A stretch of 64,000 nt of DNA from Pseudonocardia oceani (GCF_019263585.2 NZ_JADQDF010000001.1:2356001-2420000); one strand, 5' to 3'; positions 24,803 to 47,454 are shown, numbered from the stretch's first letter. Numbers and translations are program-made. The notes: a model not told the origin generated them from the letters alone.

Positions 24803-25786
24803 ATGGGTGCTCCTCCGGCCGTGACCGAGCCGCTGTCCGACATCGTCGCCTCCGTACTGGCCAACCCCGGCCTGCACGCCAAGGCCGCCATCGGGAGCCT
24901 GCTCGCCGAGGGCGGCGGGTTCAGCACCGACTGGGTCGGTGGGCCGGGCGACGACGGGGCCGTGCTCGACGCCGGCGGCAGCAGCGTGGTCGCGTGCGGG
25001 GAGGCGGTCTTCCCGCCGTTCGTGGCCGCCGACCCGCACGGCGCCGGGATCGCGGCCGTGCTCACCAACGTCAACGACCTCGCCGCGATGGGGGCCCTGC
25101 CGCTCGGGATCGTCGACACCGTCACGGGGTCCGAGGACGTCGTCCGGGGCGTGCTCGCCGGGATGCGCGAGGCGTGCGCGCTCTACCGCGTCCCGCTGGT
25201 GGGCGGGCACCTGACCGTGCACGACGGGCCGCCCTCGGTGTCCGCGTTCGGCATCGGGCACGCGCCGGTGCCGCTGTCGGTGACCCGGGCCGAGCCCGGC
25301 CACTCGCTCGTCGTCGCCGCGGCGCTGGACGGGCGGGCGCGCACCGACTTCCCCTTCTTCCCCGCCTTCCGCGAGCGGGGCGAGCGGTGCGCCGGCGACG
25401 TGCGCCTGCTAGCCGAACTCGCCGCCGACGGCACGTGCGTGGCGTCGAAGGACATCAGCATGGCCGGGCTCGTGGGGTCGCTGGCGATGCTGCTGGAGTG
25501 CGCCGGGCTCGGCGTCACCGTCGACCTGGACGCCGTCCCCGCTCCGGCCGGGGTGCCCCTGACCTGGTGGCTGAACTGCTTCCCCAGCTTCGGCTTCCTG
25601 CTCAGCGTGCCGCCGGGGCGCGAGGCCCGCTGCATCGAGGCCTTCGCCGCCCGCGGCATCCCCGCCGCCGTCGCCGGCACCTTCGACGACTCGGGCCTGC
25701 TGGCCCTGCGGGCGGGCGGCGAGACTCTGCCGGTCCTGCACCTGGACGAGGTCCGGATCACCGGCATCCCCCGCCCGTCCGCCTGA
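24803..25786 (+). CDS. AIR-synthase-related protein, sll0787 type
   Basis: A 327-residue PurM/SelD-fold protein: VGGPGDDGAVLDAGG (nucleotide loop), VLTNVNDLAAMGALPLGIVDT, VGGHLTVHDG and KDISMAGLVGSLAMLLE. It is not PurM, SelD or ThiL in detail. The pattern matches the sll0787 family, a member of the Nit1C nitrogen/cyanide gene set, as I recall from TIGRFAMs. Its reaction is unknown; the fold suggests ATP-dependent phosphorylation. The ATG at 24803 sits just behind a TATAGT box. It converges on the radical SAM gene. Confidence 0.82.
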   Translation: MGAPPAVTEPLSDIVASVLANPGLHAKAAIGSLLAEGGGFSTDWVGGPGDDGAVLDAGGSSVVACGEAVFPPFVAADPHGAGIAAVLTNVNDLAAMGALPLGIVDTVTGSEDVVRGVLAGMREACALYRVPLVGGHLTVHDGPPSVSAFGIGHAPVPLSVTRAEPGHSLVVAAALDGRARTDFPFFPAFRERGERCAGDVRLLAELAADGTCVASKDISMAGLVGSLAMLLECAGLGVTVDLDAVPAPAGVPLTWWLNCFPSFGFLLSVPPGREARCIEAFAARGIPAAVAGTFDDSGLLALRAGGETLPVLHLDEVRITGIPRPSA

Positions 25787-26061
25787 CCCGCCGCCCCGTG
25801 ATCGTCAGGAGTGCGCGACCACGGTCGCGGCGAGGACCGCCAGGTCACACTCCCGACGACCACCCGGCGGAGATCACCGGAACCGCGCCCACACGGACCT
25901 CCCCACGACCCTGACGTCCCTTCTCGGCGATCTCGACCGGTGGCCACGCAGCGGGATGGGCGGGACGGTGCCGCCGGCGGCGATCTCGACCGCCGGGCGG
26001 GGCGGACGGGACATCGCCGCCGCGGGCAGGACCGGCACGGGCCGCGCGCCGGGAGCCGGAT
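25787..26061. other. Gap between convergent genes
   Basis: About 275 bases between the convergent AIR-synthase-like and radical SAM genes. GGCGATCTCGACCG occurs at about 25926 and a near copy (GGCGATCTCGACCGCC) at about 25978. No gene or clear terminator was recognised. Confidence 0.4.
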
Positions 26062-27255
26062 TCAGGGACGGCTGCCGATCTGCAGCAGCGTGGGCCCACC
26101 ACCGGCCCCACCCCCGGTCGGGCCGCAGGGCGGGGCGGAGCCCGCCTGCTGCACCAGGTTCAGCGAGGAGCAGGCCTGGCAGCGGGCGCAGCCTGCGACG
26201 GCCGTGTCGGCGCCGAGCCCGCGCTCGGCCAGGAACGCCGCGACCTTGCGGTAGATCGGCTCCGTGTACTCCCGCGACGGGGCGGGGACGTCCTGCATCA
26301 GCGACCCGGCGACCGGCCGGAAGGGCACCACGAACGGGTAGACGCCGATGTCGACGGCCCGCTTGCACATGGCCACGGTGAGGTCGGGGTCCTCGCCCAT
26401 ACCGAGGATGACGTAGGTCGACACGCGGCCCTCGCCGAACAGCTCGACGGCCCGCTCCCAGGTGCGGAAGTAGCTGTCGATGCCGGTGCGGAACTTGCCG
26501 GGGGCGATCCGGGCGAGCACGGCGGGGTCGAACGACTCGACGTGCACGCCGACGGAGTCGATGCCCATGTCGTGCACGCGGTCGAGCACCGACAGGTCGC
26601 GCGGGGGCTCGAACTGCACCTCCACCGGCAGCCCGGCCGCCTCCTTCACCGCCTGCCCGCAGCGGGCGACGTACAGCGCGCCGCGGTCGGGCGCGACCGA
26701 CGAGCCGGTGGTCAGCGTGGCGTCGACGGCGCCGTCGAGCTCCTTCGCGGCCACGGCGACCTCGGCCAGCATCTCCGGCGTCTTCTTCGCGATGGTGCGG
26801 CCCGCGGCCAGGGACAGCCCGATGCCGCAGAAGCCGCACTGGTCGGCGTTGCCCCAGTAGTTGCAGGCCTGCACGACGGTGGAGGCCAGCGAGTCCAGGT
26901 GCAGCAGCGCGATCTGGTGGTACGGGACGCCGTCGGCGGTCTGCAGGTCGTAGAACCGGGGCCGGTCGGTTCCGGAGACCGAGGCGACCTTGCGGCCGTC
27001 GCGGTAGATGCTCTGCCCCTCGTCGTCGGCGAGGAGCCGGTACGGCGACGTGGGGCTCGGCGGGACCGTGACCGGCACGCCCTCGATCCACATCATCCCC
27101 GAGTCCGACGGCCCTGCGCCCCCGGTGCGGGAGGTGGCCAGTTCGGTGTCGATCCGCAGCCCCACCGCCTGCAGATCCATGATGAGAGCGGCGACGGCCG
27201 CCGGATCGGCAGCCCCGTCGCCGCGGGGAGGAGCACCGTTGAGGACGTCGGTCAT
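26062..27255 (-). CDS. Radical SAM protein, MSMEG_0568 type
   Basis: A 397-residue radical SAM protein. The cluster motif is wide: C131, then C140 and C143 (ACNYWGNADQCGFCGIG), i.e. Cx8Cx2C instead of Cx3Cx2C. A second trio, C356-C359-C362 (GCARCQACSS), near the C-terminus may bind an auxiliary cluster, and the end is Gly-rich. This is the MSMEG_0568 family of the Nit1C cluster, placed by memory of the family. Substrate unknown. The ATG at 27255 is 3 bases from the palindromic promoter it shares with the divergent DUF1116 gene. Confidence 0.88.
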   Translation of the reverse strand: MTDVLNGAPPRGDGAADPAAVAALIMDLQAVGLRIDTELATSRTGGAGPSDSGMMWIEGVPVTVPPSPTSPYRLLADDEGQSIYRDGRKVASVSGTDRPRFYDLQTADGVPYHQIALLHLDSLASTVVQACNYWGNADQCGFCGIGLSLAAGRTIAKKTPEMLAEVAVAAKELDGAVDATLTTGSSVAPDRGALYVARCGQAVKEAAGLPVEVQFEPPRDLSVLDRVHDMGIDSVGVHVESFDPAVLARIAPGKFRTGIDSYFRTWERAVELFGEGRVSTYVILGMGEDPDLTVAMCKRAVDIGVYPFVVPFRPVAGSLMQDVPAPSREYTEPIYRKVAAFLAERGLGADTAVAGCARCQACSSLNLVQQAGSAPPCGPTGGGAGGGPTLLQIGSRP

Positions 27256-27258
27256 GCG

Positions 27259-27272
27259 TCTACTATAGTAGA
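27259..27272. promoter_or_regulatory. Perfect 14-bp palindrome, shared divergent -10 boxes
   Basis: TCTACTATAGTAGA is a perfect palindrome that contains TACTAT on both strands. On the plus strand TACTAT (27261-27266) ends 7 bases before the ATG at 27274; on the minus strand TACTAT (27270-27265) ends 9 bases before the ATG at 27255. One short element could thus drive two leaderless transcripts and also be an operator. It is the best example of the motif found at other promoters here. Confidence 0.7.
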
Positions 27273-27273
27273 A

Positions 27274-28716
27274 ATGCCTCGCTGCACCCACCCCGACGAG
27301 AGGCCTGCGATGCCGGTCACGACACTGCCCGATCCGATCGCCGTGGTGAACATCGGCCTGCCCATGTTCGCCGACGCCGTGCGGGCGCAGGACCGGCCGG
27401 TGCAGCAGGTCGACTGGCGCATCCCCGCCGACGGCGATCCCGCCGCCGTCCGCGCGCTCACCTCCCTCTACGGCCGGCACGCGGCCACCGTCGACGCCGC
27501 CAACGCCGAGGTGGTCCGCCGGCTCGACGAGGGCGTGCCGCAGCTGGTCGGCACCGCGACCGTCGCGGACGTCCCCGGCTTCGACGGCCGGACGCTGCTG
27601 CACTGCGGCCCGCCGATCGAGTACGGGCAGGCGTGCGACCCGCTGCAGCGCTCGATGCGCGCCGCGACCGTCGCCGAGGGCTGGGCCGACGACGTCGCGG
27701 GCGCCGACGACCTGCTCCGCCGGGGCGCGGTCGCGCTGTCCCCGGCCAACCACCACGACACCGTCGTGCCGATGGCCAGCGCAGTGGGACCGTCGCAGCC
27801 GGTGTTCGTCGTCACCAACGCCGAGGGCGGCACGCGCGCCTTCTCACCGCTCAACCAGGGGCCCGGCGAGGTGGCCTGGTTCGGGCGCGACACCGACGCC
27901 GCGATCGAGCGGCTGCGCTTCCTGGCGACGACGGCCGGACCGGCCGTGGCCGCGATCCTGGAGGCGGCGGGCCCGCTCGACGTGCTGGCGATCGCGAGCC
28001 AGGGCATCACCATGGGCGACGACCTGCACATGCGCACGCAGGCCGCCACCAACCTGCTGACGCGCACCTGGCTGCCGCACATCGCGGCGCTGCCCGATGC
28101 GGTGCGCGCCCCGTTCGGCGCCTACCTCGGTGCCAACCACCTGTTCTTCCTCAACCTCGCGATGGCCGCTGCGAAGTCGTTGCAGCTGCACGCCGGGCAG
28201 GTCGAGGGCTCCAGCATCGTCACCACCATGTCGCGCAACGGCACCACGTTCGGCATCAAGCTCTCCGGCACCGACGAGTGGCGGATCTGCCCCGCCCCGC
28301 CCGTCGGCGAGGCGCTCTACTACTCGGGCAACGGCCCGGAGACGAGCGCGCGCGACATCGGCGACAGCGCCGTGCTGGAGCTGACCGGGATGGGCGGGCC
28401 CGCCGCGGGCGGGTCGGCCGCCGTCGCGGCGTTCCTGGGCGGCTCGATGGCCGACGCCGCAGCGGCCACCGCGGGCTTCCGCACGATCTGCGCGGGCACC
28501 AGCAGCCGGTTCACCCTGCCGCCGCTGGAGTTCGCCGGCACCCCGCTGGGCGTCGACGTCCGGCGCGTCGTCGAGACGGGCACGACCCCGAAGATCACGA
28601 CCGGCATCCTGCACGTCAGCGCCGGCACCGGCCAGGTGGGCGCGGGGGTGGCGACGGCGCCGCTCACGTGCTTCTCCGACGCCCTGCTCGACCTCGCGGC
28701 CCGGCTGGACCGCTGA
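27274..28716 (+). CDS. DUF1116 protein (YlbE/AllG-like)
   Basis: A 480-residue DUF1116 protein (468 if the ATG at 27310, which has a GAGAGG site, is used; the promoter geometry favours 27274). Segments such as LLHCGPPIEYGQACDPLQRS, GDDLHMRTQAATNLL, TMSRNGTTFGIKLSG and PLEFAGTPLGVDVRRVV are typical. In E. coli the homologue YlbE works with FdrA and YlbF as oxamate carbamoyltransferase, as I recall. FdrA and carbamate kinase are encoded about 3-5 kb away; a DUF2877 (YlbF) protein is not seen. It heads an operon with the nitrile hydratase genes. Confidence 0.85.
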   Translation: MPRCTHPDERPAMPVTTLPDPIAVVNIGLPMFADAVRAQDRPVQQVDWRIPADGDPAAVRALTSLYGRHAATVDAANAEVVRRLDEGVPQLVGTATVADVPGFDGRTLLHCGPPIEYGQACDPLQRSMRAATVAEGWADDVAGADDLLRRGAVALSPANHHDTVVPMASAVGPSQPVFVVTNAEGGTRAFSPLNQGPGEVAWFGRDTDAAIERLRFLATTAGPAVAAILEAAGPLDVLAIASQGITMGDDLHMRTQAATNLLTRTWLPHIAALPDAVRAPFGAYLGANHLFFLNLAMAAAKSLQLHAGQVEGSSIVTTMSRNGTTFGIKLSGTDEWRICPAPPVGEALYYSGNGPETSARDIGDSAVLELTGMGGPAAGGSAAVAAFLGGSMADAAAATAGFRTICAGTSSRFTLPPLEFAGTPLGVDVRRVVETGTTPKITTGILHVSAGTGQVGAGVATAPLTCFSDALLDLAARLDR

Positions 28717-28764
28717 CATCCTGCTGGACCCCGCACCGACCGAGAAGCGAAGGAAGGACGAGCC

Positions 28765-29433
28765 ATGGACGGGATCGCCGACATGGGCGGCACCGACGGA
28801 TGGGGCACCGCCACCGCCCCGCGCCGGGACGAACCGCCGTTCGCCGAGCCGTGGGAGGGGCGGGCGTTCGCGCTGACGCTGCTGTCCATGGGACGGATCT
28901 CCGGCCGCAACCTCGACGCGTTCCGGCACGCGCTGGAGCGCCTGCCCCGCGAGGCCTACCTCGACGACGGGTACTACGGCCGCTGGCTTAACGCCGCCGA
29001 GCTGATGCTCACCGAGAGCGCGATCCTCGCGCCCGGCGCCGTCGACGCGCGGGCGCGCAACCTGCAGGGCGGGCAGGTCGAGGAGCCGCCGGCGCCCGAC
29101 GAGCCGACCAAGCCCGACTACGCCGCCACCGGACCCGGCTCGCTGCGCGAGGTGCCCGAGGCGCCGCGGTTCGCCCCCGGTGACCGGGTGCGCGCCAAGG
29201 ACGTGAGCCCCGTCGGCCACACCAAGCTCCCCCGCTACGTGCGCGGGCACGTGGGCACGGTCGAGGCCGTGCAGCCCGGGCACCTGCTCCCCGACACCCA
29301 CGCCCACTTCGAGGGCGAGAACCCGCAGCACGTCTTCACCGTCGCCTTCGACTCCCACGACCTGTGGGGGCCGGACGCGGAGTCCTTCTCCCTGACCATC
29401 GAACTCTTCGACAGCTACCTGGAGCCGGCATGA
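28765..29433 (+). CDS. Nitrile hydratase beta subunit
   Basis: A 222-residue beta subunit. The N-terminal helical part has [13 protein letters not shown] and [14 protein letters not shown]; the C-terminal SH3-like barrel has [29 protein letters not shown] and [16 protein letters not shown]. All are standard for NHase beta. With the alpha subunit it hydrates nitriles to amides. Gene order beta-alpha-accessory is that of cobalt-type enzymes. The ATG at 28765 has an AAGGAAGG site, and the stop overlaps the alpha start in ATGA. Confidence 0.95.
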
Positions 29434-30032
29434 CCACGTCCGCGGACCCCGGAACCGAGCGCCTGTCCCCGGCGCTCCGCACGGAGGCCCTCGAGCAGCT
29501 GCTCACCGAGCGCGGCCTCGTCGACCCGAAGGTGATGGACGGGTTCATCGCCAACTACGAGACGAAGGTCGGCCCGCTCAACGGGGCGAAGGTCGTCGCG
29601 AAGGCGTGGACCGACCCCGAGTACCGCGCGCGTCTCCTCGCCGACGGCACGGCGGCCATCAAGGAGCTCGGCTTCAGCGGGCCGCAGGGCGAGCACATCG
29701 TCGTCGTCGAGAACACCGCGCAGCGGCACAACGTCACCGTCTGCACGCTGTGCTCCTGCTACCCGTGGCCGGTCCTGGGCCTGCCCCCGTCGTGGTACAA
29801 GGACCCGGCCTACCGCGCGCGGGTCGTCCGCGAGCCGCGGAAGGTGCTCGCCGAGATGGGCCTGGAGCTGGCCGACGACGTCGAGATCGTCGTGCGCGAC
29901 TCCAGCTCCGAGGTGCGCTGGCTGGTGCTGCCCGAGCGGCCCGCGGGCACCGAGGGGCTCTCCGAGGAGGAGCTGGTGCCGCTGATCTCCCGCGACGCGC
30001 TGGTGGGGGTCGCGAAGGTCGCGGCGCCGTGA
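29430..30032 (+). CDS. Cobalt-type nitrile hydratase alpha subunit
   Basis: A 200-residue alpha subunit. The metal site [11 protein letters not shown] (104-114) has three cysteines (105, 108, 110) and Ser109 for a non-corrin metal. Thr106 instead of Ser indicates the cobalt form. [13 protein letters not shown] and [13 protein letters not shown] complete the family pattern. The enzyme converts a nitrile to the amide. The substrate is unknown; small nitriles, or possibly cyanide given the neighbours, are inference. No nitrilase or amidase gene is adjacent. Confidence 0.95.
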
Positions 30033-30424
30033 GCGCGGGCACCGTCCAGCGCGAGGCCCCGCTCCCCTACGACGGCGTGGCCGCCCCGCCGCGCTCCAAC
30101 GGCGAGCTGGTCTTCACCGAGCCGTGGGAGTCGCGGGCGTTCGGCATGGCGGTGAGCCTGCACGACGCGGGCGCGTTCGCGTGGCCGGTGTTCCAGCAGG
30201 CGCTGATCGCGCGCGTCGCCGAGTGGGAGGCGGCGCACCCCGAGGGGGGCGACTACCGCTACTACGAGCAGTGGCTCTCGGCGCTCGAGGACGTCCTCGA
30301 CGGCGGCGGCACCGTCCCGCTCGCCGAGGCCCGGACCCGCGCGGGCGAGCTCGCCGGCCGGCCCGCCGGGTACGACCACGAGCACGCCCCCGGCGAGGGC
30401 CACGGCCACGGGCACGGCCACTGA
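30029..30424 (+). CDS. Nitrile hydratase accessory (activator) protein
   Basis: A 131-residue protein resembling the N-terminal half of NHase beta ([35 protein letters not shown]), the pattern of P14K/NhlE-type activators that swap the apo-alpha subunit to insert cobalt. The C-terminus is rich in histidine ([15 protein letters not shown]), likely for holding the metal. The GTG at 30029 overlaps the alpha stop in GTGA. It completes the beta-alpha-activator operon. Confidence 0.9.
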
Positions 30425-30431
30425 CCGACGC

Positions 30432-31592
30432 TCAGCCCGGCACCGGCGCGGTCAGCTCCGCGTAGACCTCCCGGTGCCGGGCGGCGCTCGCCTCCCAGGT
30501 GTAGCGCGGCAGCACCGCCCGCCCGCCCGCGACGAGACGCTCCCGCAGGGCGGCGTCGTCGAGGAGGCGGCCCAGCGCGGCCGCCAGTGCCGCGGGGTCA
30601 CCGACGGGCGGCAGCAGCGCGTCGCGGCCGTCGGCCAGGTACTCGGCGAAGACCGGCAGGTCGGAGGCGACGACGGGCAGCCCGGCGGCCAGCGCCTCCA
30701 GCACGACCAGCCCCCAGCCCTCCTTCACCGACGGGAAGCAGAGCACGTCGGCGGCGTGGTACCAGCCCGCGAGGTCGGCGTCGGACACCGTGCCCAGCAG
30801 CACGACGTCCTCCCCGAGCACCAGCCCCAGGTCGGGCAGCGCCGCGAGGGCGGCGTCGCGGTAGGCGGTGTAGTCCTGGAAGGAGTGCCCGCCGACGATC
30901 GCGAGCGTCGCCACCGGGCCCCGCTCCCGCTTGAGCCGCCCCAGCGCCTCGAACGCGTGCCGGGTGCCCTTGCGGGGCTCGATCCCGCCGACGCCCAGCA
31001 GCAGGGCGCGCCCCGCCGGGATCCGCGACCGCAGCTCGGCGACCCGCTCCGGGCCGGGTGAGGCGAACCGGGCGGTGTCCACGCCGTTGGGCACGACCGT
31101 CGCCTCGCGGCCGTACTCGTCGCGCAGGATGGCCCGCCACTGCTCGCTGACCACCAGTACCCGGTCGGGCTCGGCGATGGCCGCGCGCTGGCAGTCGACC
31201 AGCGCGCGCGTCGTGAAGTCGTCGACGTGGTGCACGGTGCGCACGACCGTGACCGCCGCGCCGGCGTCGCGCACGCGGACCGCGGCGCGGGCGGCGATGC
31301 AGTCCTGGGTGTGCAGCACGTCGAACGCGCCCGCGAGCCCGGTCAGGCCGGTCTCCAGGGTGTCGATCGCGGCGAACACGCGTTCGTCGAGCGTGGTGCC
31401 GGAGTGCGAGGGCCCGGCGAGGACGGTGTGCGGCACCGGCGTCGCGCGCGGCAGCCCGGCGGCGGGGTCGCCGAGCGCCACGAGGTGCACGTCGACCCCG
31501 TCGGCGTGCAGCGCCTCCGCGATGCCGAGGGTGTGGACGAACCCGCCACGCGGCTTCGTCGAGTGCGTCACCAGCGCCACCCGCGGCCCCAT
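30432..31592 (-). CDS. Glycosyltransferase, MSMEG_0565 type
   Basis: A 386-residue GT4-fold (GT-B) glycosyltransferase with GGFVHTLGIAEALHADGVD near the N-terminus, VVPNGVDTARF, GVGGIEPRKGTRHAFEAL and CFPSVKEGWGLVVLEALAAG, the last being the donor-binding site. It fits the MSMEG_0565 family, a regular member of the Nit1C set. It presumably glycosylates the product of the radical SAM/AIR-synthase pathway; that is inference. The ATG at 31592 overlaps the fdrA stop in ATGA. Confidence 0.85.
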   Translation of the reverse strand: MGPRVALVTHSTKPRGGFVHTLGIAEALHADGVDVHLVALGDPAAGLPRATPVPHTVLAGPSHSGTTLDERVFAAIDTLETGLTGLAGAFDVLHTQDCIAARAAVRVRDAGAAVTVVRTVHHVDDFTTRALVDCQRAAIAEPDRVLVVSEQWRAILRDEYGREATVVPNGVDTARFASPGPERVAELRSRIPAGRALLLGVGGIEPRKGTRHAFEALGRLKRERGPVATLAIVGGHSFQDYTAYRDAALAALPDLGLVLGEDVVLLGTVSDADLAGWYHAADVLCFPSVKEGWGLVVLEALAAGLPVVASDLPVFAEYLADGRDALLPPVGDPAALAAALGRLLDDAALRERLVAGGRAVLPRYTWEASAARHREVYAELTAPVPG

Positions 31593-33130: not shown

Positions 33131-34125
33131 GATGCCGCTCCGACGCTCGACGGGGGGACGATGCGGGTGGTGACGCTGCCACCGGGGACGATGCGGGTGC
33201 CCACCGCACCGGGCGGGCCGCCCTCGAGCGAGGAGCAGGCGTGCTCGACGTCGGTGACCACGGCGGTGCCGCCGGTGGCCTGGACGAAGCGGGTGGCGGC
33301 GCGCATCTTGGGCCCCATGCTGCCCTCCGGGAACTGCCCGGCCGCGGCGTGCCCCAGCGCCTCGTCGGTGGTCATCTCCCCGACCTCGCGGGCCTGCGGG
33401 GTGCCGTAGTCGAGCATCACCCGCGGCACGCCCGTCACCAGCATCAGCACATCGGCGCCGAGCGTGCTGGCGAGCTTCTCGGCCGCGAGGTCCTTGTCCA
33501 CGACCGCGTCGACGCCCGTCAGGACGTGCCCGTCCTGCACCACCGGGATGCCGCCGCCGCCCGCCGCGACGACGACCGACCCGCGGTCGACGAGCGCCCG
33601 GATGTCGTCGATCTCGACGATCCGCCCGGGCTCGGGGGACGCCACGAGCCTGCGGTAGCCCCGTCCCGCGTCCTCGCCGACGGTCCAGCCGCGCTCGCTC
33701 GCCTGCCGCTGCGCGGTCTCCTCGTCGAGGAAGGGCCCGATCGGCTTCGTCGGCCGCGCGAAGGCCGGGTCGGCGGGGTCGACCACCATGTGCGTGACGA
33801 CGGCGACGACGCCCGGCAGGCGACCGCCGCCCGCCTCGTGCAGGGCGAGGGTGATCAGGCACCCGAGCTGGCCCTCGGTCATCGCGCCCAGCCAGAACAG
33901 CGGCATCTCCGGCACCCGGTGCGCCGCCTCCTCCTGCTGGATGGCGAGGTTGCCGACCTGCGGGCCGTTGCCGTGCACGATGACGACGTTCCACCCGGCC
34001 TCACGCATCCGGCAGACGGCCCGGGCCATCGCGCGGGCGTTGGCCGTCTGCTCGGCGTGGGTGCCGGTCTCGCCGCTGCGGGTGATCGCGTTCCCCCCGA
34101 GAGCGACGACGACGGTTCTGGGCAT
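33127..34125 (-). CDS. arcC: Carbamate kinase
   Basis: A 332-residue carbamate kinase (MPRTVVVALGGNAITRSG, VHGNGPQVGNLAIQQE, VAAGGGGIPVVQ, GSMGPKMRAATRFV). It makes ATP from ADP and carbamoyl phosphate, leaving CO2 and ammonia. No arginine deiminase or ornithine carbamoyltransferase is near, so the source of carbamoyl phosphate is probably the FdrA/DUF1116 system. The C-terminal tail holds a short tandem duplication (GTRIVPGGSVTTRIVPP), unlike the family. It is the first gene of arcC-fdrA-glycosyltransferase. Confidence 0.93.
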   Translation of the reverse strand: MPRTVVVALGGNAITRSGETGTHAEQTANARAMARAVCRMREAGWNVVIVHGNGPQVGNLAIQQEEAAHRVPEMPLFWLGAMTEGQLGCLITLALHEAGGGRLPGVVAVVTHMVVDPADPAFARPTKPIGPFLDEETAQRQASERGWTVGEDAGRGYRRLVASPEPGRIVEIDDIRALVDRGSVVVAAGGGGIPVVQDGHVLTGVDAVVDKDLAAEKLASTLGADVLMLVTGVPRVMLDYGTPQAREVGEMTTDEALGHAAAGQFPEGSMGPKMRAATRFVQATGGTAVVTDVEHACSSLEGGPPGAVGTRIVPGGSVTTRIVPPSSVGAAS

Positions 34126-34172
34126 GATGGGTGGGGCCCTTCGTGGAGTGGATTCACCATGAGAGAGGGATT

Positions 34173-34186
34173 TCCATCATAGTAGA
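34173..34186. promoter_or_regulatory. Palindromic site upstream of arcC-fdrA
   Basis: TCCATCATAGTAGA matches the region's 14-bp motif. On the minus strand it reads TCTACTATGATGGA and is followed by AATCC, as at 40829 where TGGAAATCC recurs. TACTAT (34184-34179) could be the -10 box of the arcC operon, leaving a leader of about 45 bases. Confidence 0.6.
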
Positions 34187-34229
34187 CGACCGGCCGACAG
34201 CCTGGTCCGAACGCGGGCGTCAGCACGGG

Positions 34230-34235
34230 TAGAGT
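34230..34235 (+). promoter_or_regulatory. -10-like box of the SARP-type regulator
   Basis: TAGAGT lies 7 bases before the GTG at 34243, implying a leaderless transcript. This helps choose the GTG over an ATG two bases earlier in another frame. Confidence 0.4.
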
Positions 34236-34242
34236 CGGCCAT

Positions 34243-37200
34243 GTGGGTCAGCCCCTGCGGCTCTGCCTGCTCGGCTCCTTCACCGTCGAGGGTGAGCTCT
34301 CCGGACACGTGCCCGTCGGGAAGGCCCGTCGGGTGCTCGCCGTGCTCGCCGCACGGAGGGGTGAGTTCGTCCCGATCGAGCACCTGGTCGACGCGCTCTG
34401 GGAGGACCACCCGCCCGACCGCGCCGACCGCAACGTCGCCGCGCTGATCAGCCGCCTGCGCCGAGCGCTGGGCCGGCCGCTCATCGAGGGGTCCGCCGCC
34501 GGGTACCGGATGGCCGCCGACCTCGTCGCGGTCGATCTGCTGGAGGCCGCCGACCTCGTCGCCACCGCCGAGCTGGAGCTCGGCCAGGGCCGCTTCGCGC
34601 TCGCCTCGACGAGCGGCGAGCAGGCCGCCAAGCTGCTCGACGCCGACGTCGCGCTGGCCGGGGAGCACGAGGACCGGTGGGTGCGCGACCTGCGCCGCTC
34701 GGTCCGCGCCCTGCTGCACCGCGCCCGCACCGCGTGGGCGGCCGCCGCGCTCGAGCTCGGCGCGCTCGACACGGCCGTGCAGGTCGCGACGGCCGTCCTG
34801 CGCCTCGACCCGTTCGACGAGGGCGCCTGCCGCACGGTCATGCTCGCCCACCAGCGCGCGGGCCGTCCGGGCAACGCGCTGCTCGCCTACCGGTCGCTGC
34901 GGGAGTCCCTCGCCGAGCACCTCGGCATCGACCCCTCCCCCGCGACGCAGGCGCTGCACCTCGCCGTGCTGCGCGCGGAGAGCGACCCGCCCGCCCCGGC
35001 CGCCCCCGCCCCCGCGGCCGACCCGGGTCTCGTCGGGCGCGACGCCGAGCTCGGCCGGCTCCGCGACCTGTGGGCGGACGCCGCGGCGGGCAGGCCCGGC
35101 GCGGCCGTCCTCACCGGGGAGGCGGGGATCGGCAAGACCGCGCTGGCCTCGGCGCTCGCGGCGGAGGTCCGGCGCGCCGGAGCGCTCGTCGTCGAGGCCA
35201 CCTGCTTCGAGGCCGAGCGGTCGCTGTACCTGCAGCCGCTCGTCGACCTCGTGCGGGCGATCGTCCACCGCACCACCCCGGCCGAGGTGCGCGAGCTGGC
35301 CGGCGCACGTCTGGGCACGCTGGTGGAGCTCGTCCCCGAGCTGACCGACCTGGTCGGGCCGGTGCCCTACGAGCGGGCGGCGCCCGAGGTCGAGCACCGC
35401 CGCAGCGTCGACGCCGTGGGCGGCTTCCTCACCCGGCTCGGCGCCCGGGTGCCCGTGCTGCTCGTCGTCGAGGACCTGCAGCACGCGGGGCAGTCCACCG
35501 TGGAGGCGCTGCACGTCCTCGCCGCCCACTGGCAGGGCGCACGCGTGCTGCTGCTGCTCACCGAGCGGACCGACGAGTCGCCCGACGTCACCGCACCGCT
35601 GCGCGACCTGGCGACCTGGATCCCGCTCGGGCCGCTCACGCGGGCCGACGTCGCCGTGCTCGTCGCGCGCAGCGGCCGCGGCCACGACCCCGGCCGGGTG
35701 TGGTCCTGGACGGGCGGGTCGCCGCTGTTCCTCTCCGAGCTGCTGCGCCTGCCCGTCGGGGACGGCGAGGACCCGCCCGCCGTGCCCCCGACGCTGCACG
35801 ACGCCGTCGCCGCTCGACTCGACCACGCCGGCGACGCCGTCGCGCACCTGCTCGCCCAGTGCGCCACGCTCGGCACCACCGTCGTCCTCGACGACGTGGC
35901 CGCCCTGTCCGGCCTCGACGTCGAGGACTGCGCGGCGCGGGCCGACCGGGCGATGCGCGCGGGGCTGCTCACCGTGCAGGGCGACAGCTTCCGGTTCGCC
36001 AACGACATCGTCCGGCGCGTCGCCTACGAGTCGGTGCCCGAGCCCGTCCGCGTCAACCGCCACCGCCGCGCGGCCCGCCTGCTGGCCGACCGGCCCGAGG
36101 CTGCGGCGCAGCACCTGGCGGCGGCGGGCGACCCGCGGGGCGCGGCCGCGGCCTGGCTCGCGGCCGCCGACGCCGCCGACGTGTCCTTCGCCCACACCGA
36201 CGCCGAGCGCCTGCTCGGCTGCGCCGTCGACGCCGCCCTCGCCGGCGGCGACACCGCACAGCTGGTGGCGGTCCACCTGCGGCGCGGGCACGTCCGGCGC
36301 GACCTGGGCCGCCCCGCCGACGCCCGCGAGGACCACGAGCGGGCGCTGGCGCTCGCCCGCGAGCTGGGCGACCTCGAGCTGGAGGCCCGGGCGCTGGAGC
36401 AGCTGGGCTGGACCGCCCTCTACGCCCGTGACGCCGCCGTCGCGGTCGACTTCGCCGAGCAGGCCACCCACCTCGCCGAGTCGGCCGCCGCCGCCCCGCG
36501 GGCCCTGCCGTCGGCCACCCTGCTGCTGGGGCGGGTCCGGCACTGGGACGGCGACTACGCCGGTGCCGCCGCGGCCTACGACGACGTCCTCTCGGCGTCG
36601 GGCGAGGACGCCACCACCGCGATCGCGCTCGCCTACCGCGGCGCCCTGCTCCAGCACCAGGACCGCTTCGACGAGGCCCGCACCGTCCTGGCCAGGGCGG
36701 CGGTGCTGTGCCGGCGCACCGGGGAGTTCCGGCCGCTGCTGCAGACCCTGTTCTTCACCGCGCTCGCCCGCGGCGACTCCGGCGACTTCGGCGGGGCGCT
36801 GCGCTCCCTGGACAACGCCCGCCGCCTCATCGACGCCGAGAACCTCGGCTTCTACCGCGCGGGCATCGAGACGACGACCTCGTGGATGTGGCAGGAGCTG
36901 GGCCAGGTCGAGCGCGCCCGCGAGCACGCCGTGCGCGCCGTGGAGCTCGCCCACCGCGGCGGCGGCGCGCTGGAGCTGGAGCAGGAGCTGCACGCGCTGC
37001 TCGCGGTGGCCGACTGCGACCTCATGCTGGGTCGCCCCGACGACGCCGCGGCCGCCGTCGAGCAGGCCGGACCGATGCTGGAGCGCTCGCTGCCGTTCCG
37101 CTCGCGGGCCACCATGCGCCTGGTCGAGATGCGGGCCCGGTGGGACCGCTCGGAGGCCGAGCGGCTGCTCGACGTCGCCCGCCGCTACTCCTCGCCCAAG

Positions 37201-37413
37201 TACGTCGCGCTCGCCCTGCACCACATGGGGCGGCCCGCCGAGGCCGCCGAGATCGCCACCGGCACCGGCTCCGACCTGCTGGCGGCGCAGCTCGGCGCGC
37301 CCGCGGAGCGCGCGGCGGCGCTCACCCGGATCGCGGCGGCGCTGCCCGCGGCGGCGCGCGAGTCGTTCACCGCCGGGGGCAGGTTGGTGCTCCCGGCGCC
37401 GCGCACCCGCTGA
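34243..37413 (+). CDS. SARP/BTAD regulator with AAA ATPase and TPR-like C-terminus
   Basis: A 1056-residue regulator. Residues 1-90 form an OmpR-type winged helix (GKARRVLAVLAARRGEFV, NVAALISRLRRALG), followed by a BTAD domain (to about 250). An ATPase follows, with P-loop GEAGIGKTALASALA and Walker B VPVLLVVEDLQHAG. The C-terminal 450 residues are helical TPR-like repeats. Such large SARP-type activators control clusters of accessory genes. It stands in the middle of the nitrogen block, diverges from arcC, and is a candidate regulator of it. The GTG at 34243 gives VGQPLRLCLLGSFTV. Confidence 0.88.
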   Translation: MGQPLRLCLLGSFTVEGELSGHVPVGKARRVLAVLAARRGEFVPIEHLVDALWEDHPPDRADRNVAALISRLRRALGRPLIEGSAAGYRMAADLVAVDLLEAADLVATAELELGQGRFALASTSGEQAAKLLDADVALAGEHEDRWVRDLRRSVRALLHRARTAWAAAALELGALDTAVQVATAVLRLDPFDEGACRTVMLAHQRAGRPGNALLAYRSLRESLAEHLGIDPSPATQALHLAVLRAESDPPAPAAPAPAADPGLVGRDAELGRLRDLWADAAAGRPGAAVLTGEAGIGKTALASALAAEVRRAGALVVEATCFEAERSLYLQPLVDLVRAIVHRTTPAEVRELAGARLGTLVELVPELTDLVGPVPYERAAPEVEHRRSVDAVGGFLTRLGARVPVLLVVEDLQHAGQSTVEALHVLAAHWQGARVLLLLTERTDESPDVTAPLRDLATWIPLGPLTRADVAVLVARSGRGHDPGRVWSWTGGSPLFLSELLRLPVGDGEDPPAVPPTLHDAVAARLDHAGDAVAHLLAQCATLGTTVVLDDVAALSGLDVEDCAARADRAMRAGLLTVQGDSFRFANDIVRRVAYESVPEPVRVNRHRRAARLLADRPEAAAQHLAAAGDPRGAAAAWLAAADAADVSFAHTDAERLLGCAVDAALAGGDTAQLVAVHLRRGHVRRDLGRPADAREDHERALALARELGDLELEARALEQLGWTALYARDAAVAVDFAEQATHLAESAAAAPRALPSATLLLGRVRHWDGDYAGAAAAYDDVLSASGEDATTAIALAYRGALLQHQDRFDEARTVLARAAVLCRRTGEFRPLLQTLFFTALARGDSGDFGGALRSLDNARRLIDAENLGFYRAGIETTTSWMWQELGQVERAREHAVRAVELAHRGGGALELEQELHALLAVADCDLMLGRPDDAAAAVEQAGPMLERSLPFRSRATMRLVEMRARWDRSEAERLLDVARRYSSPKYVALALHHMGRPAEAAEIATGTGSDLLAAQLGAPAERAAALTRIAAALPAAARESFTAGGRLVLPAPRTR

Positions 37414-37419
37414 GCGCGC

Positions 37420-37905
37420 TCAGCGCAGACCGATGGCCATCCGCACGTGGGGGATGCCGACGTAGAGCTCCGGCTCGGCCAGGCGCTCCCAGCCCAGCCG
37501 GCGGAAGAACACCTCGTTGGGCTGCTGCACGAGCGCGACCATCCGGTCGCCGCCGCGCGCGCCGGCCGTGGCCACGGCGAAGCGGACCAGCGCGATCCCG
37601 AGCCGCCCGGCGCGGCGCCCGGGCAGCACGGCGAGGCGGTCGCCCTTCCACTGCCCGGGCCCGACGGGGTAGAGCCGCACGCTGCCCGACGGGCGGCCGT
37701 CGGCCAGGCCCAGGACGTGCAGCGTCGACGGGTCGTCGTCGAGGGCGTCGCGGTCGGAGCCGGCGAAGACGCCCTGCTCCTCGACGAACACGGTCCGCCG
37801 CACGGTGTGGTGGGCGGCCAGCTCGTGGTCGTCGGCGACGAGCCGGCAGACCTCACGGGGGGCGTCGACCTCGGCGACCGGGTCGAGCGGCCGGGCGGTC
37901 GTCAC
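37420..37905 (-). CDS. GNAT N-acetyltransferase, MSMEG_0567 type
   Basis: A 161-residue GNAT with HTVRRTVFVEEQGVF, GSVRLYPVGPGQWKGDRLAVL (acetyl-CoA region) and VALVQQPNEVFFRRLGWERL. It matches the MSMEG_0567/sll0786 acetyltransferase of the Nit1C set. In this family it is thought to act in nitrogen starvation; the substrate is unknown. The GTG at 37905 overlaps the preceding stop in GTGA. It is the last gene of a five-gene operon and converges on the SARP gene with a 6-base gap. Confidence 0.85.
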   Translation of the reverse strand: MTTARPLDPVAEVDAPREVCRLVADDHELAAHHTVRRTVFVEEQGVFAGSDRDALDDDPSTLHVLGLADGRPSGSVRLYPVGPGQWKGDRLAVLPGRRAGRLGIALVRFAVATAGARGGDRMVALVQQPNEVFFRRLGWERLAEPELYVGIPHVRMAIGLR

Positions 37906-38537
37906 GCCCCGTCGCCGATCTCGGCGCGGTAGCGGTGGAACTCCGCGATCCACGGCTCGCGCCGGGTGAACGACGCGCCGCGGGGCGGGACCACCCCGGC
38001 CTCGATCACGTCGACGCGGTAGGGCTCCGGCGACCAGGCGTCGACCGTGGCGCGGATCTCGACGCCCGACGCGACGTGCAGGTGGGTGCAGCAGGCGACG
38101 CCGCCGGGGCCGCCGGTGACGTCCTCGATCGCCTCGGGGCCGGCGAGCACCGCCCACGCGGAACCGGTCGCCCTGGCCCCCTCGATGGCGGCGTGGTGCT
38201 CGCGGCGGACCTCCTCGGCGATGAGGTCTCGCTCACGCATCCCGCAGGCGACGCCCACGAGCAGACCGGCCGGGACGGCGCCGGGCCGCAGGCCGCACTC
38301 GGCGAGGAACGCGTCCGGCGCGGCCATGACCGCGACCAGCGCCGGCAGGTCGGCGTCGCGCCTGCCCAGCTCGGTCGCGAGCGCGCCGATCGTCTCCACC
38401 GCCCCGGCGTAGGACGGCGGGTCGTTCATCAGGGTGGGGAACAGGGACTCGCCCGCCGCCCTCCACCGGCTGCGCCACGCGGCCACGTCGGCGGAACCGG
38501 GAGCGGAGAGGGGGTCCATGGATGCGGACGATGTCAC
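37902..38537 (-). CDS. Hypothetical protein in the Nit1C-type operon
   Basis: A 211-residue protein I do not recognise. Segments include LAECGLRPGAVPAGLLVG, AIEDVTGGPGGVACCTHLHV (paired cysteines near residue 150) and ATVDAWSPEPYRVDVIEAG. Its position between the Sll0783-like and GNAT genes suggests a shared pathway. GTG at 38537 is the chosen start because GGAGG lies 7 bases before it; an ATG at 38519 is the alternative. Confidence 0.65.
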   Translation of the reverse strand: MTSSASMDPLSAPGSADVAAWRSRWRAAGESLFPTLMNDPPSYAGAVETIGALATELGRRDADLPALVAVMAAPDAFLAECGLRPGAVPAGLLVGVACGMRERDLIAEEVRREHHAAIEGARATGSAWAVLAGPEAIEDVTGGPGGVACCTHLHVASGVEIRATVDAWSPEPYRVDVIEAGVVPPRGASFTRREPWIAEFHRYRAEIGDGA

Positions 38538-38607
38538 GGTGGTACCTCCGGACGCCGGGCCGGGACCGGGAGGGGACGGTCCTGGCCCGGCGGTCACCGA
38601 GCGGGTG

Positions 38608-39093
38608 TCAGAGGGTCCAGGTCTGCATGACCAGCGCGCCCTCGCGGCGGGCCGTGAGGTTGCAGTCGAGCACGTCGAGCGGGTGCATCGGGATGACGCC
38701 CTCGATCAGGTCGGTCTCGCGCATGCCGTAGAGCGCGGCCATCGCGAAGCGGCAGGCGTAGACCTTGCCGCCCTCCTTGATGAACGTGCCGAGCTGGTTG
38801 TTGAAGTTCATGTGGCCGGGGAACGCCTCGGCACCGACGGTCGGGAAGCCGCGGGTCGCCGACGCCATCAGCACGCCGGGGCCGTAGAGCACGATGCTGG
38901 TGTCGAAGCCCTTCCGGTTGATCCGGGTGGCGGTCAGCATGTTCACGAAGCCGACCGAGCCCTCGAAGGGCACGGTGTGCATGAAGATGTAGGCCTTCTC
39001 GCCCTCGTTGGCCTGGACGTCGTCGAACAGCTTCTCGTCGTAGTCGACGATGACGTCGCCGGTGTTCGGGCGCTCGCCGATGATCTGAGCCAC
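38608..39093 (-). CDS. Sll0783/MSMEG_0572-type nitrogen starvation protein
   Basis: A 161-residue protein with [39 protein letters not shown] and [17 protein letters not shown]. It closely fits the MSMEG_0572/Sll0783 family of the Nit1C cluster, which has a DsrE-like look. In cyanobacteria the family is induced on nitrogen starvation; its biochemical role is unknown. The GTG at 39093 has an AAGGAG site. This is good evidence that the block is a Nit1C variant. Confidence 0.88.
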
Positions 39094-39136
39094 GGTGGTT
39101 CTCCTTCTGTGCGGGTGGGTGGTGGAGCTGTCGCGG

Positions 39137-39397
39137 TCAGACCGCTGGTCCTCGTGACCGGGGCGGGGGCGCCCAGGTCTGCCGGTGGCTCCCGGGCATC
39201 GCGCGCATGATCCGGCTGCGGAGCGACCACGGGAGCAGTGCGTAGACGGGAGCGAAGATCCGCAGCCAGAAGATCTCCCGGAGCCCCTTCGGCGCCCGCG
39301 GCGGCGGCGAGCCCAGGGTGCGGGCGAGCTTCGCGTGGGCGGCGACGAGGAGGTAGTGCTCGGAGTTGCTGCGCAGCCAGCCGAAGAAGGACGCCAC
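39137..39397 (-). CDS. Small hypothetical protein with one hydrophobic segment
   Basis: An 86-residue basic protein ([37 protein letters not shown]). The middle stretch may be a membrane anchor. GTG at 39397 lies 2 bases after the oxidoreductase stop, so they are coupled. No known family is recognised. Confidence 0.55.
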
Positions 39398-39399
39398 CG

Positions 39400-40755
39400 C
39401 TACTTCCCCTTCGCGGCGGCGACGCCGTTGGTCGCGGCCACCACGATCGGCTCGTTGAGCGCGCCGATGGCGGGCGAGTAGACGTTCTCCATGGTCGACA
39501 GGTCGTGCAGCGTCATGCCGAACCGGATCGCCTGGGCGAGGAAGTCGGCGCGCTCCTTGATGCCCTCGCCGCCGCCGATCATCTGCGCGCCGATCAGCCG
39601 CAGCGTGCCCGGCTCGGCGAGCAGCTTGACCTTCACCGGCTGCACGCCCGGGTAGTAGCGGGCGCGCGAGATGCCCTGCGCCTCGCCCTTGACGTAGGGG
39701 ATGCCGAGCGCGGTGGCCGTGGCCTCGCCGAACGAGGCGCCGCCGATGACCCACTTGCCGGCCGGCGTGCCCCACGGGACGTAGACGGCCCGGTAGGAGC
39801 GGTCGCCGCCGCCCGCGTTGGTGCCCGCCGTCTTGCCCTGCGCGTAGGCGTGCGACCCGGTGAGCCCCTGCAGCGGGGTGCGGGTCAGCCCGTGCGGGAT
39901 CTCGACGACGTCGCCCGCCGCCCACACGTCCGGGGCGGAGGTCTTCATCCTCTCGTCGACGATGATCGCGCCGGTGGAGCCGAGCTTGAGCCCCGCGGCC
40001 TCGGCCAGCGCGGTCTCGGGCGTCTTGTGCGTGGAGATGACGACCAGGTCGGCCGTGATCTCGCCGCCCGAGGTCTTCACCGCGCGGACCTTGCCCTCGG
40101 CGTCGCCGAGGAACTCCTCGAGCGTGGTGTTGAAGTGCAGGTGCACGCCGAGCTCGCGCCAGGACTCCTCGACGGGGGCCATGATGTCGGGGTCGGCCAT
40201 CATCGACAGGGCGTAGGGGTTGGGGTCGATCAGGTGGGTCTCGACGCCGCGGTGGGCGAGTGCCGTGACCATCTCCAGCCCGAGCGGGCCGGCCTCCACG
40301 ACCACGGCCGCCTTGGTCTCGGAGATGACCTTGTCCCACTCCATGGCCTTGCGGATGTTCTTGACGTAGTAGAGGCCCTGCAGGTCACCGCCGGGGACAC
40401 CGGGGTCGGCGTAGTTCCAGCCGGTGGCGATGACCAGGCTGTCGTAGCGGACCGCACCCTCGCCCGCGACCGTGACGGTGTGGGCCGCCGTGTCGATGGC
40501 GGTCACCGCCGTCTCGTAGTGCACGTCGATGCCGGCGTCGACGTAGGCCTGCTTGCCCGCGAGGAACAGCCGCTCGAAGTCGGGGATCTCGCCGCCGTGG
40601 ACGTAGGGGATCCCGCAGGGGCTGTAGGCGACGTCCTCGAACTCGGTGTAGACGACGACGTCGGCGCCGGGATCGGCGGCCTTGACCCCCCCGGCGGCAC
40701 CCAGTCCCGCGGCGCCTCCCCCGATCACGACAGTGCGCCGCGGTGCTGCTGACAC
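39400..40755 (-). CDS. FAD/NAD(P)H disulfide-reductase-like oxidoreductase
   Basis: A 451-residue pyridine-nucleotide disulfide oxidoreductase of the CoA-disulfide-reductase/NADH-oxidase branch: FAD motif TVVIGGGAAGLGAAGG, a single active cysteine in YSPCGIPY near residue 47, AAVVVEAGPLGLEMVTALA and VWAAGDVVEI. The lone Cys fits enzymes that reduce small-molecule disulfides. As coenzyme M genes lie next door, reduction of a CoM or mixed disulfide is an attractive inference. GTG at 40755 heads a five-gene operon. It is not the FMO-type MSMEG_0569 protein of standard Nit1C clusters. Confidence 0.82.
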   Translation of the reverse strand: MSAAPRRTVVIGGGAAGLGAAGGVKAADPGADVVVYTEFEDVAYSPCGIPYVHGGEIPDFERLFLAGKQAYVDAGIDVHYETAVTAIDTAAHTVTVAGEGAVRYDSLVIATGWNYADPGVPGGDLQGLYYVKNIRKAMEWDKVISETKAAVVVEAGPLGLEMVTALAHRGVETHLIDPNPYALSMMADPDIMAPVEESWRELGVHLHFNTTLEEFLGDAEGKVRAVKTSGGEITADLVVISTHKTPETALAEAAGLKLGSTGAIIVDERMKTSAPDVWAAGDVVEIPHGLTRTPLQGLTGSHAYAQGKTAGTNAGGGDRSYRAVYVPWGTPAGKWVIGGASFGEATATALGIPYVKGEAQGISRARYYPGVQPVKVKLLAEPGTLRLIGAQMIGGGEGIKERADFLAQAIRFGMTLHDLSTMENVYSPAIGALNEPIVVAATNGVAAAKGK

Positions 40756-40842: not shown

Positions 40843-40873
40843 ACTGGTGGCCCTGTCAACCAGTGGAGGACCG

Positions 40874-47377: not shown

Positions 47378-47454
47378 CGACGTCTCCTGTCTGCTGTGAT
47401 GCCGCGCACTCTCGCGCGAACCGGTTGCACCGGTGTTGCACGAGGGGACCGGGC

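Follow-up and report, generated by a model that had tools for sequence, protein, structure and literature searches.

A recurrent gene unit of Pseudonocardia oceani joins a Nit1C-type core, a nitrile hydratase and a carbamoyl module tied to coenzyme M genes

What is a Nit1C-type gene set for when it lacks its nitrilase? The question is raised by a gene cluster in a 64,000-nucleotide stretch of Pseudonocardia oceani DNA (GCF_019263585.2, NZ_JADQDF010000001.1:2356001-2420000), which we refer to as the window and along which positions are counted. The purpose of such gene sets was left open in 2005, according to the available part of their description (PMC1199592), and has since been answered in part by work in Pseudomonas that ties nit1C to growth on cyanide (PMC11049912, available part). 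An earlier note on this DNA had read positions 24803-40755 as a Nit1C cluster without nitrilase that carries a cobalt nitrile hydratase instead. Since AllF, AllG, carbamate kinase, an unclassified protein, a flavoprotein and a coenzyme M (CoM) operon are also present, we move the end to 46979. Positions 24803-46979 almost certainly constitute one functional unit of three joined modules, namely a Nit1C-type core, a nitrile hydratase, and AllF/AllG plus carbamate kinase tied to CoM biosynthesis. The previous end is thus too short, as the CoM operon (41473-46979) belongs to the unit, and the label of a Nit1C cluster without nitrilase leaves most of it out, namely the genes for AllF, AllG, carbamate kinase and CoM synthesis.

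Three joined modules

Genes were called from tables of open reading frames (ORFs), codon-position guanine-cytosine content and profile scans (NCBIfam with curated cut-offs, Pfam, PDB). Read from 24803 to 46979, the unit starts with genes for an AIR-synthase-like protein (+), a radical SAM protein (-), AllG (+) and nitrile hydratase beta subunit, alpha subunit and activator (+). These are followed by glycosyltransferase, AllF/FdrA and carbamate kinase (-, transcribed in the order kinase-AllF-glycosyltransferase) and a BTAD regulator (+), then by GNAT, an unclassified protein, Sll0783, an 86-aa protein and the flavoprotein (-), an HTH-cupin regulator (+), and finally XcbC, XcbE, XcbD, XcbA and ComA (-). 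Many neighbours are closely coupled, with spacings of -4 bp for kinase/AllF, beta/alpha, alpha/activator, GNAT/unclassified, XcbC/XcbE, XcbE/XcbD and XcbA/ComA, -1 bp for AllF/glycosyltransferase and -16 bp for XcbD/XcbA. The earlier gene list was largely right, although it overlooked AllG, AllF/FdrA, carbamate kinase, the unclassified, 86-aa and flavoprotein genes and the CoM operon.

Four of the five core families named earlier exceed their cut-offs. These are a radical SAM protein of a divergent group of the MSMEG_0568 family (26062-27255, -, ATG at 27255; TIGR04043, 384.3 over 303.7 bits in a scan starting at codon 2), the MSMEG_0565 family glycosyltransferase (30432-31592, -; TIGR04047, 356.0 over 259.9 bits), the MSMEG_0567/Sll0786 N-acetyltransferase (GNAT; 37420-37905, -; TIGR04045, 110.2 over 68.5 bits) and the DsrE-like MSMEG_0572/Sll0783 protein (38608-39093, -; TIGR04044, 241.9 over 109.9 bits; PF02635, 23.2 over 22.7). 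The fifth, the AIR-synthase-like protein (24803-25786, +; PF00586/PF02769), has the sll0787 type as its best family but stays below the curated cut-off (TIGR04049, 240.4 against 321.3 bits); among its PDB sequence matches, PurL and SelD come first, then HypE (E 2.8e-6). Profile searches also confirm that nitrilase, MSMEG_0569 and MSMEG_0570 are absent from the cluster. The window holds no nitrilase, as the only one of the genome's 12 C-N hydrolase matches located there (4827-5633) sits inside an NAD synthase gene (4770-6824).

The genome (6.8 Mb, three contigs) carries a second, canonical Nit1C-type set that is partly scattered and separate from the unit. At C3:6.52 Mb, another MSMEG_0568 radical SAM gene (C3:6524348, 473 bits) stands with Sll0783, GNAT, AIR-like, C-N hydrolase and glycosyltransferase genes. 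MSMEG_0569 (635.6 bits, C3:6035957) adjoins another C-N hydrolase at C3:6.036 Mb, and MSMEG_0570 (107.2 bits, C3:5676657) lies at C3:5.677 Mb, both over cut-off. The earlier note had named a Nit1C nitrilase elsewhere in the genome as a point that would speak against it; no protein of the whole genome exceeds the cut-off of the TIGR04048 nitrilase (best 239.8 against 502.6 bits), but the second set has its own C-N hydrolase, so that this objection holds by half. A nitrilase-like gene at C3:3923202 was rejected as part of the unit, none of whose genes occurs within its 19-kb stretch. In the stretch around C3:6.52 Mb (L050; related stretches carry L numbers, genomes G numbers), the glycosyltransferase is matched as two pieces in different frames (9016-10109, -).

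In a tree of 105 radical SAM proteins, 66 actinobacterial-type unit rows fall on one side of a 100/100 branch and 36 canonical rows behind another (100/95); from the trees, only identical rows were removed. The nearest rows to the window protein are from Pseudonocardia (89% identity to P. alaniniphila). Two alphaproteobacterial rows from units group on the canonical side, on long branches and with a program warning. The combination of modules is thus found with radical SAM proteins of two lineages.

The nitrile hydratase operon inside the cluster stands as previously described, with all three profiles over curated cut-offs: beta subunit (28765-29433, +; TIGR03888, 184.4 over 152.2 bits), alpha subunit (29430-30032, +; TIGR01323, 300.6 over 249.9 bits) and activator (30029-30424, +; TIGR03889, 73.9 over 46 bits). 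The alpha subunit displays the motif CTLCSC, which we take to mark the cobalt type, and its best PDB matches are cobalt nitrile hydratases. It is not the solved enzyme 1ire/1ugp, presumably that of Pseudonocardia thermophila, as other cobalt enzymes score higher. Identity with thiocyanate hydrolase was rejected as well (gamma-subunit model 186.2 bits, cut-off 291.5).

The third module comprises an AllG-like (DUF1116) oxamate carbamoyltransferase subunit (27310-28716, +; PF06545, 221.2 bits; PDB 3clq, E 7.4e-68), an AllF/FdrA-like protein with succinyl-CoA-synthetase-like regions (31592-33130, -; PRK06091 FdrA, 415.3 bits, cut-off 433; profile match to FdrA, PDB 3dmy, E 2.4e-87) and a carbamate kinase (33127-34125, -; arcC, 352.5 bits, cut-off 358.3; PRK12352, 275.7 over 266 bits). 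The CoM homologues are contiguous: an XcbC-like CoM biosynthesis lyase (41473-42993, -; NF052535, 428.6 bits, cut-off 575; 37% to Xanthobacter Py2), an XcbE-like pyridoxal-phosphate enzyme (42990-43952, -; NF052537, 204.2 bits, cut-off 450; 38.5% to Py2), an XcbD-like lyase (43949-45286, -; NF052536, 552.3 bits, cut-off 600; 43% to Py2), an XcbA family protein (45271-46197, -; NF052538, 328.4 over 150 bits) and a ComA-type phosphosulfolactate synthase (46194-46979, -; TIGR03849, 226.8 bits, cut-off 280; PF02679, 259.9 over 25.2).

Recurrence of the unit and exchange of its hydratase

Does this combination recur? The radical SAM family was searched in 348 genomes of the order, 71 of which have a match. 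Places near 380 bits, similar to the score in the window, occur in G188, G020, G068 (two), G143 and G161. In all of these genomes but G188, to which we return below, the gene is flanked as in the window, also by CoM genes. Of the two G068 places, the second is at the end of a contig, where no more than radical SAM, GNAT and the unclassified family are seen. An alignment scan of named genomes with AllF yielded 159 relatives, the best 80 of which, together with five further loci, form a set of 85 loci. These best 80 include Pseudonocardia, Actinomycetospora, Nocardioides, Terrabacter, Geodermatophilus, Asanoa, Planosporangium, Sphaerimonospora, Leekyejoonella, acidimicrobial and other metagenome-assembled genomes, and Ruegeria; some labels of assembled genomes (Bifidobacterium, Bacillota) look doubtful.

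Within the 85 loci, we count AllF in 84, glycosyltransferase and kinase in 79 each, GNAT in 71, the unclassified family in 70, radical SAM in 65, XcbC in 56, AllG in 53, Sll0783 in 47, the flavoprotein in 44, the AIR-like protein in 35 and nitrile hydratase alpha in 34, numbers that include many short contigs, flanks ending at 10 kb and duplicates (L046/L123, L048/L116, L187/L088, L189/L087). In the 46 stretches of at least 19 kb, with the same flank limit and a few duplicate contigs, a CoM gene is found in 42, glycosyltransferase in 46, kinase, GNAT and the unclassified family in 44 each, radical SAM in 39, AllG in 36, Sll0783 in 35, the flavoprotein in 33 and the AIR-like protein in 21. Overall, the unit is spread over many families, and named isolates from two phyla have it, among them two alphaproteobacteria.

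The AllF proteins themselves separate the unit from ordinary loci. When 396 genomes from the phylum and 385 from alphaproteobacteria were scanned with profile A3, this type scored 664-871 bits, clearly apart from all others, which reached 521 bits at most. The profile includes the window, L045, L046, L048 and L131, and places that are rows of it, such as the window and the Ruegeria one, score high by construction. All nine other high-group places in the phylum, two of them already seen (L187, L189), carry CoM genes, as does the Ruegeria place. Conversely, in nine of nine low-group loci examined, out of 29 low places, AllF is accompanied by AllG, AllH or kinase, and within 20 kb neither CoM nor Nit1C nor hydratase genes are seen. 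XcbA is present in seven of the 348 genomes of the order and in all five that have a high-group AllF (the other two are G100 and G263; Fisher 5e-10, uncorrected for kinship). In the 85 loci, kinase-AllF is coupled 79 times and AllF-glycosyltransferase 78 times. AllG directly follows XcbC within 250 bp 31 times, although not in the window, and the two overlap by 4 bp in L048 and L049, depending on start choice. Therefore, it is the carbamoyl module, and not the Nit1C core, with which CoM synthesis is associated.

The hydratase, in contrast, is exchanged. Among 53 unit stretches with Sll0783, 32 carry nitrile hydratase only, 13 an amidohydrolase (PF04909) only, one both (L066) and seven neither within the stretch. 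Nitrile hydratase was searched genome-wide in 23 genomes that lack it in the stretch (L090 left out), with one present in 12 and none in 11, and the amidohydrolase in 16 genomes, that of P. oceani included. Together with the latter, these genomes divide, for the dedicated hydratase lineage, into 10 with nitrile hydratase only, 13 with amidohydrolase only, one with both (G356) and none with neither, a 10/13 split that does not represent population shares because the 23 genomes were chosen for hydratase-free stretches; when any nitrile hydratase is counted, the 24 genomes divide into 10, 11, three and none. In the alpha-subunit tree, the main unit lineage holds 46 rows (100/98), including one canonical-set row and 11 from elsewhere in the genomes. 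The latter mostly adjoin unit genes as well: Sll0783 in L142, L145, L146, L147 and L149, the flavoprotein in L150 and L152, and kinase, ComA or BTAD pieces in L151, L157 and L156; near the L158 copy, none of the unit's genes is seen. One genome, G365 (L072, Pseudonocardia dioxanivorans CB1190), has eight nitrile hydratase alpha matches, one of them partial.

The amidohydrolase lies directly after Sll0783 in L219 and L220 and at other places of the unit elsewhere; in L118 and L120, for instance, it separates the unclassified gene from that for radical SAM. Its HxH motif, further histidines and an aspartate are kept in 11 of 11 aligned sequences, and the PDB matches of its model (predicted local distance difference test, pLDDT, 81) are led by ACMSD, with the hydratase LigJ third. 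Based on these conserved residues and model matches, the amidohydrolase may be a hydratase. A match in L045 was discarded as probably an artefact of a mis-called ORF with part of Sll0783, as clean queries give none, and the match in L145 is possibly the same artefact. Taken together, one nitrile hydratase lineage belongs to the conserved unit and is exchangeable with the amidohydrolase between genomes. As genomes without the unit nitrile hydratase carry the amidohydrolase there, nitrile hydration is probably a step of the pathway, and by their families these exchangeable enzymes are its likely catalysts.

A further substitution concerns the C-N hydrolase. In eight of eight canonical stretches examined (nine fetched of about 55 canonical-scoring places; the 3-kb L056 left out), a C-N hydrolase is present that is at least 65% like the copy of the P. 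oceani genome or of L055, so that the Nit6803 nitrilase is not the rule among these actinobacterial canonical sets. None of the eight holds an AllF, AllG, kinase or CoM gene, except for a 35% XcbE-like match in L054. Conversely, only L197 (30%) among 97 unit stretches matches the canonical C-N hydrolase queries, and a Nit6803 query finds L164 itself, L115 (35%) and L117 (32%). Hence, the unit carries AllF/AllG and mostly carbamate kinase where canonical sets carry a C-N hydrolase. The earlier proposal that hydration may replace hydrolysis holds insofar as nitrile hydration is probably a step, but it is AllF/AllG and kinase, not nitrile hydratase, that take the place of the C-N hydrolase.

Further genes of the unit and its neighbours

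The flavoprotein (39400-40755, -) is a disulfide reductase of the CoA-disulfide/persulfide reductase type (CoA-disulfide reductase model 250.9 bits, cut-off 578.8). NADH oxidases and CoA-disulfide and persulfide reductases are among its PDB relatives, and its SPCGIP motif, with the conserved cysteine, is kept in 49 of 49 matches. The unclassified protein (37902-38597, -) has no match in NCBIfam and Pfam at E<=0.01; it belongs to a fast-changing family, and its confident AlphaFold2 model (pLDDT 88.8) finds no PDB match at E<=0.001. We rejected it as a divergent AllH, since Pfam, NCBIfam and PDB give this no support and AllH-like genes stand beside its family in several loci. The conserved 86-aa protein (39137-39397, -; family in 43 of 85 loci) has no match among family models at cut-off and copies of 62-76% identity among its best matches. 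Two regulators complete the unit, a BTAD/AAA/TPR protein (34243-37413, +; PF03704, PF13191, PF13424; 28 of 85 loci) and an HTH-cupin protein (40847-41452, +; HTH regulator models all below cut-off; 41 of 85 loci). PADLOC gave no match for three proteins.

Beyond ComA lie a 114-aa protein without family (47033-47377, -), by eye similar to an ORF group of three loci (L073, L098, L108), and an OsmC-like protein (47425-47853, +; PF02566, 74.1 bits) whose family recurs in 16 of 85 related loci. Nickel-pincer cofactor genes adjoin the unit at 47846-50756 (-), LarC (168 over 90 and 125 over 50 bits) and LarE (299 over 150 bits), and are not among the families recurrent at related loci. Farther away, at 12915-15500 (-), a choline/carnitine acyltransferase (PF00755, 514.5 bits), a type unusual in bacteria, stands next to a protein with a weak match to the halogenase HalD (PF23169, 38.7 bits, cut-off 26).

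A possible route, its rivals and its meaning

What could the joined modules do? The overall task would be nitrogen salvage from cyanide or a cyano compound. Cyanide would first be captured by CoM, or by a sulfonated thiol resembling it, perhaps through attack on a CoM disulfide or persulfide, yielding an organic thiocyanate, which nitrile hydratase would hydrate to an S-carbamoyl thiol. AllF/AllG and phosphate would convert the latter into carbamoyl phosphate and free CoM, carbamate kinase would form ATP, CO2 and ammonia from carbamoyl phosphate, and the flavoprotein would re-reduce CoM disulfide. The bacterial CoM pathway and the cyanolysis of disulfides are general knowledge. For AllF/AllG, precedent comes from E. 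coli, where AllFGH turns oxalurate and phosphate into carbamoyl phosphate and oxamate and AllK provides ATP, as stated in the available part of PMC11326118. Judged by family membership, it is an even question whether AllF/AllG form carbamoyl phosphate here, and ATP formation is likewise suggested by the families. For the route as a whole, nitrile-nitrogen salvage by hydration and carbamoyl phosphate release with ATP gain and CoM as thiol carrier, we are tentative and see less than an even chance; CoM as the cyano and carbamoyl carrier is a conjecture that we regard as somewhat weaker still. Cyanide as the source and the tasks of the radical SAM, GNAT, AIR-like and glycosyltransferase proteins are conjecture as well.

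The unit on plasmid pSS37A-Re-1 of Methylocystis iwaonis (L164) bears on this proposal from both sides. It contains AllF/AllG, a Pnap_2097 family protein and a Nit6803 nitrilase (572.5 over 502.6 bits), so that the link to nitriles is kept. Cytochrome bd-type oxidase genes adjoin it, from which a link of the unit to cyanide might be drawn.

Several observations weigh against the proposed salvage route. In the Methylocystis unit, no carbamate kinase is present in 37 kb, and the nitrilase alone could release ammonia. When the Methylocystis bd-type oxidase proteins are used as queries, such genes turn up next to this stretch only, out of 114, and the window has none. By its profile scores the nitrile hydratase is of an ordinary kind, with the thiocyanate hydrolase model scoring lower. 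Exchange of the hydratase is not strict, as P. spinosispora (L066) and G356 carry both types, and a nitrile hydratase from a different lineage is present in G353 and G364, which are among the 13 genomes with amidohydrolase. AllH (PF11392) has no match in the P. oceani genome at E<=0.001, while AllH-like genes occur in 32 of 85 loci and AllH is needed in E. coli (PMC11326118, available part). In the CoM operon, only XcbA exceeds its NCBIfam cut-off and ComA, XcbC, XcbD and XcbE stay below theirs; its product may therefore be a sulfonate other than CoM. Four of the 46 long stretches lack a CoM gene (L075, L077, L095, L140), and in G188, of the same genus (L043, 13990-16919), only glycosyltransferase, radical SAM (84% identical) and GNAT are found in 35 kb, without XcbA or AllF at the thresholds used; this reduced set is either decay or a smaller working set. 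Furthermore, the route gives the radical SAM, AIR-like, GNAT and glycosyltransferase proteins no task, and cyanide and CoM thiocyanate are conjectured substrates.

The strongest competitor to the salvage route, with a modest chance of being correct, is the breakdown of an N-cyano or ureido metabolite that the radical SAM and AIR-like proteins would make or open, with AllF/AllG and kinase cleaving an N-carbamoyl group and CoM serving another step, for example as a redox thiol. The known AllFGH substrate, oxalurate, is indeed an N-carbamoyl compound (PMC11326118, available part), and the three C-N hydrolases scanned from the canonical sets (L050 and L055) are nearest to N-carbamoylputrescine amidase, at 83-89 bits against a cut-off of 410. 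However, this leaves unexplained both the 31 XcbC-AllG adjacencies and the pairing of CoM genes with AllF/AllG rather than with the amidase-like gene. The pathway might also run in the building direction, which we consider unlikely: kinase and AllF/AllG would carbamoylate CoM or another thiol and the AIR-like protein would dehydrate it to a cyano group, giving a cofactor or signal. HypF/HypE synthesize the cyanide ligand of hydrogenase through carbamoyl phosphate, S-carbamoyl and S-cyano chemistry, and the AIR-like protein falls in the HypE superfamily; glycosyltransferase, acetyltransferase and radical SAM proteins are, moreover, common in biosynthesis. Yet the AIR-like protein resembles PurL and SelD more closely than HypE, the Methylocystis unit has no kinase, and a nitrile hydratase, amidohydrolase or nitrilase within the unit would destroy the product. 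Our salvage route would be the mirror image of HypF/HypE, in the opposite direction and with different proteins, a resemblance by analogy only.

Xanthobacter Py2 and Nocardioides JS614 carry CoM operons homologous to that of the window, and XcbC has relatives at 46% in Mycolicibacterium chubuense NBB4. This would fit a third idea, improbable in our view, in which CoM keeps its known bacterial role in breaking down epoxides or alkenes, and an unsaturated nitrile, or the epoxide of one, is what the cluster processes. No epoxyalkane:CoM transferase appears among the genes profiled in the window cluster or annotated in the Methylocystis unit, a comparison that does not extend to whole genomes, and the extra families recurring most in the 85 loci are AllH, amidohydrolase, OsmC and unknowns rather than alkene genes. 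Equally improbable is the reading of the earlier note, in which nitrile hydratase alone replaces the nitrilase of a Nit1C cluster. Although the core families are confirmed and the window has no nitrilase, this ignores AllF/AllG, kinase and CoM, and one of the two exchanged genes also occurs in canonical sets that keep their C-N hydrolase (amidohydrolase in L053, L054, L057 and L058, nitrile hydratase in L055; neither in L050, L059 and L060). We dropped the Nit1C-only view because CoM and AllF/AllG genes have the same neighbours in other families. Least credible, and already disfavoured, are independent nitrogen-scavenging modules brought together by chance or by shared regulation only. Gene order does vary among lineages and the unit is split in some genomes, but recurrence in many families and two phyla, overlaps across module borders and the exchange of the hydratase contradict a chance grouping.

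Against this background, the unit can be placed among known systems. It shares Sll0783, radical SAM and GNAT proteins with the Nit1C cluster, where an AIR-like gene is present as well (the one here staying below the sll0787 cut-off), and the glycosyltransferase with some Nit1C clusters (PMC1199592 and PMC11049912, available parts). It lacks the Nit6803 nitrilase, the MSMEG_0569 flavoprotein (ORF7) and the MSMEG_0570 protein of about 100 aa (ORF6), its radical SAM falls in a separate tree group and its flavoprotein is of another type than MSMEG_0569. It adds nitrile hydratase, AllF/AllG, kinase, the CoM operon, the CoA-disulfide-reductase-like flavoprotein and two unknown proteins. With nitrilase, ORF6 and ORF7 missing, it does not qualify as a Nit1C cluster in the sense defined in 2005 (Podar). 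Nor is it a complete AllFGH system; the AllF, AllG and carbamate kinase families are common to it and E. coli AllFGH-AllK, whereas its AllF falls in the separate score group and AllH was not found. The five CoM homologues are 36-51% identical to those of Xanthobacter Py2 and Nocardioides JS614 (pNOCA01), in the gene order of JS614, but are linked to nitrile and carbamoyl genes instead of alkene and epoxide genes. From other cobalt-type nitrile hydratases, the enzyme differs in being a unit-placed lineage exchanged with an amidohydrolase.

To our knowledge, bacterial CoM is known only from alkene and epoxide metabolism. In the open literature, to which the search was confined, with subscription papers outside it, we found CoM neither together with nit1C nor joined with cyanide, thiocyanate and carbamoyl phosphate. 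A second bacterial role, in which cyanide is held as CoM thiocyanate, hydrated by the dedicated nitrile hydratase or a new amidohydrolase-type hydratase, and set free through AllF/AllG in the form of carbamoyl phosphate, from which ATP is gained, remains doubtful in this complete form. If true, it would extend the known roles of CoM and contribute to explaining the purpose of Nit1C-type gene sets. It further predicts an amidohydrolase-superfamily enzyme that would hydrate nitriles, and an AllF/AllG pair that would act without AllH on a thiol-bound carbamoyl group. The recurrent combination of the three modules thus points to an undescribed recovery of nitrogen from cyanide-like compounds.

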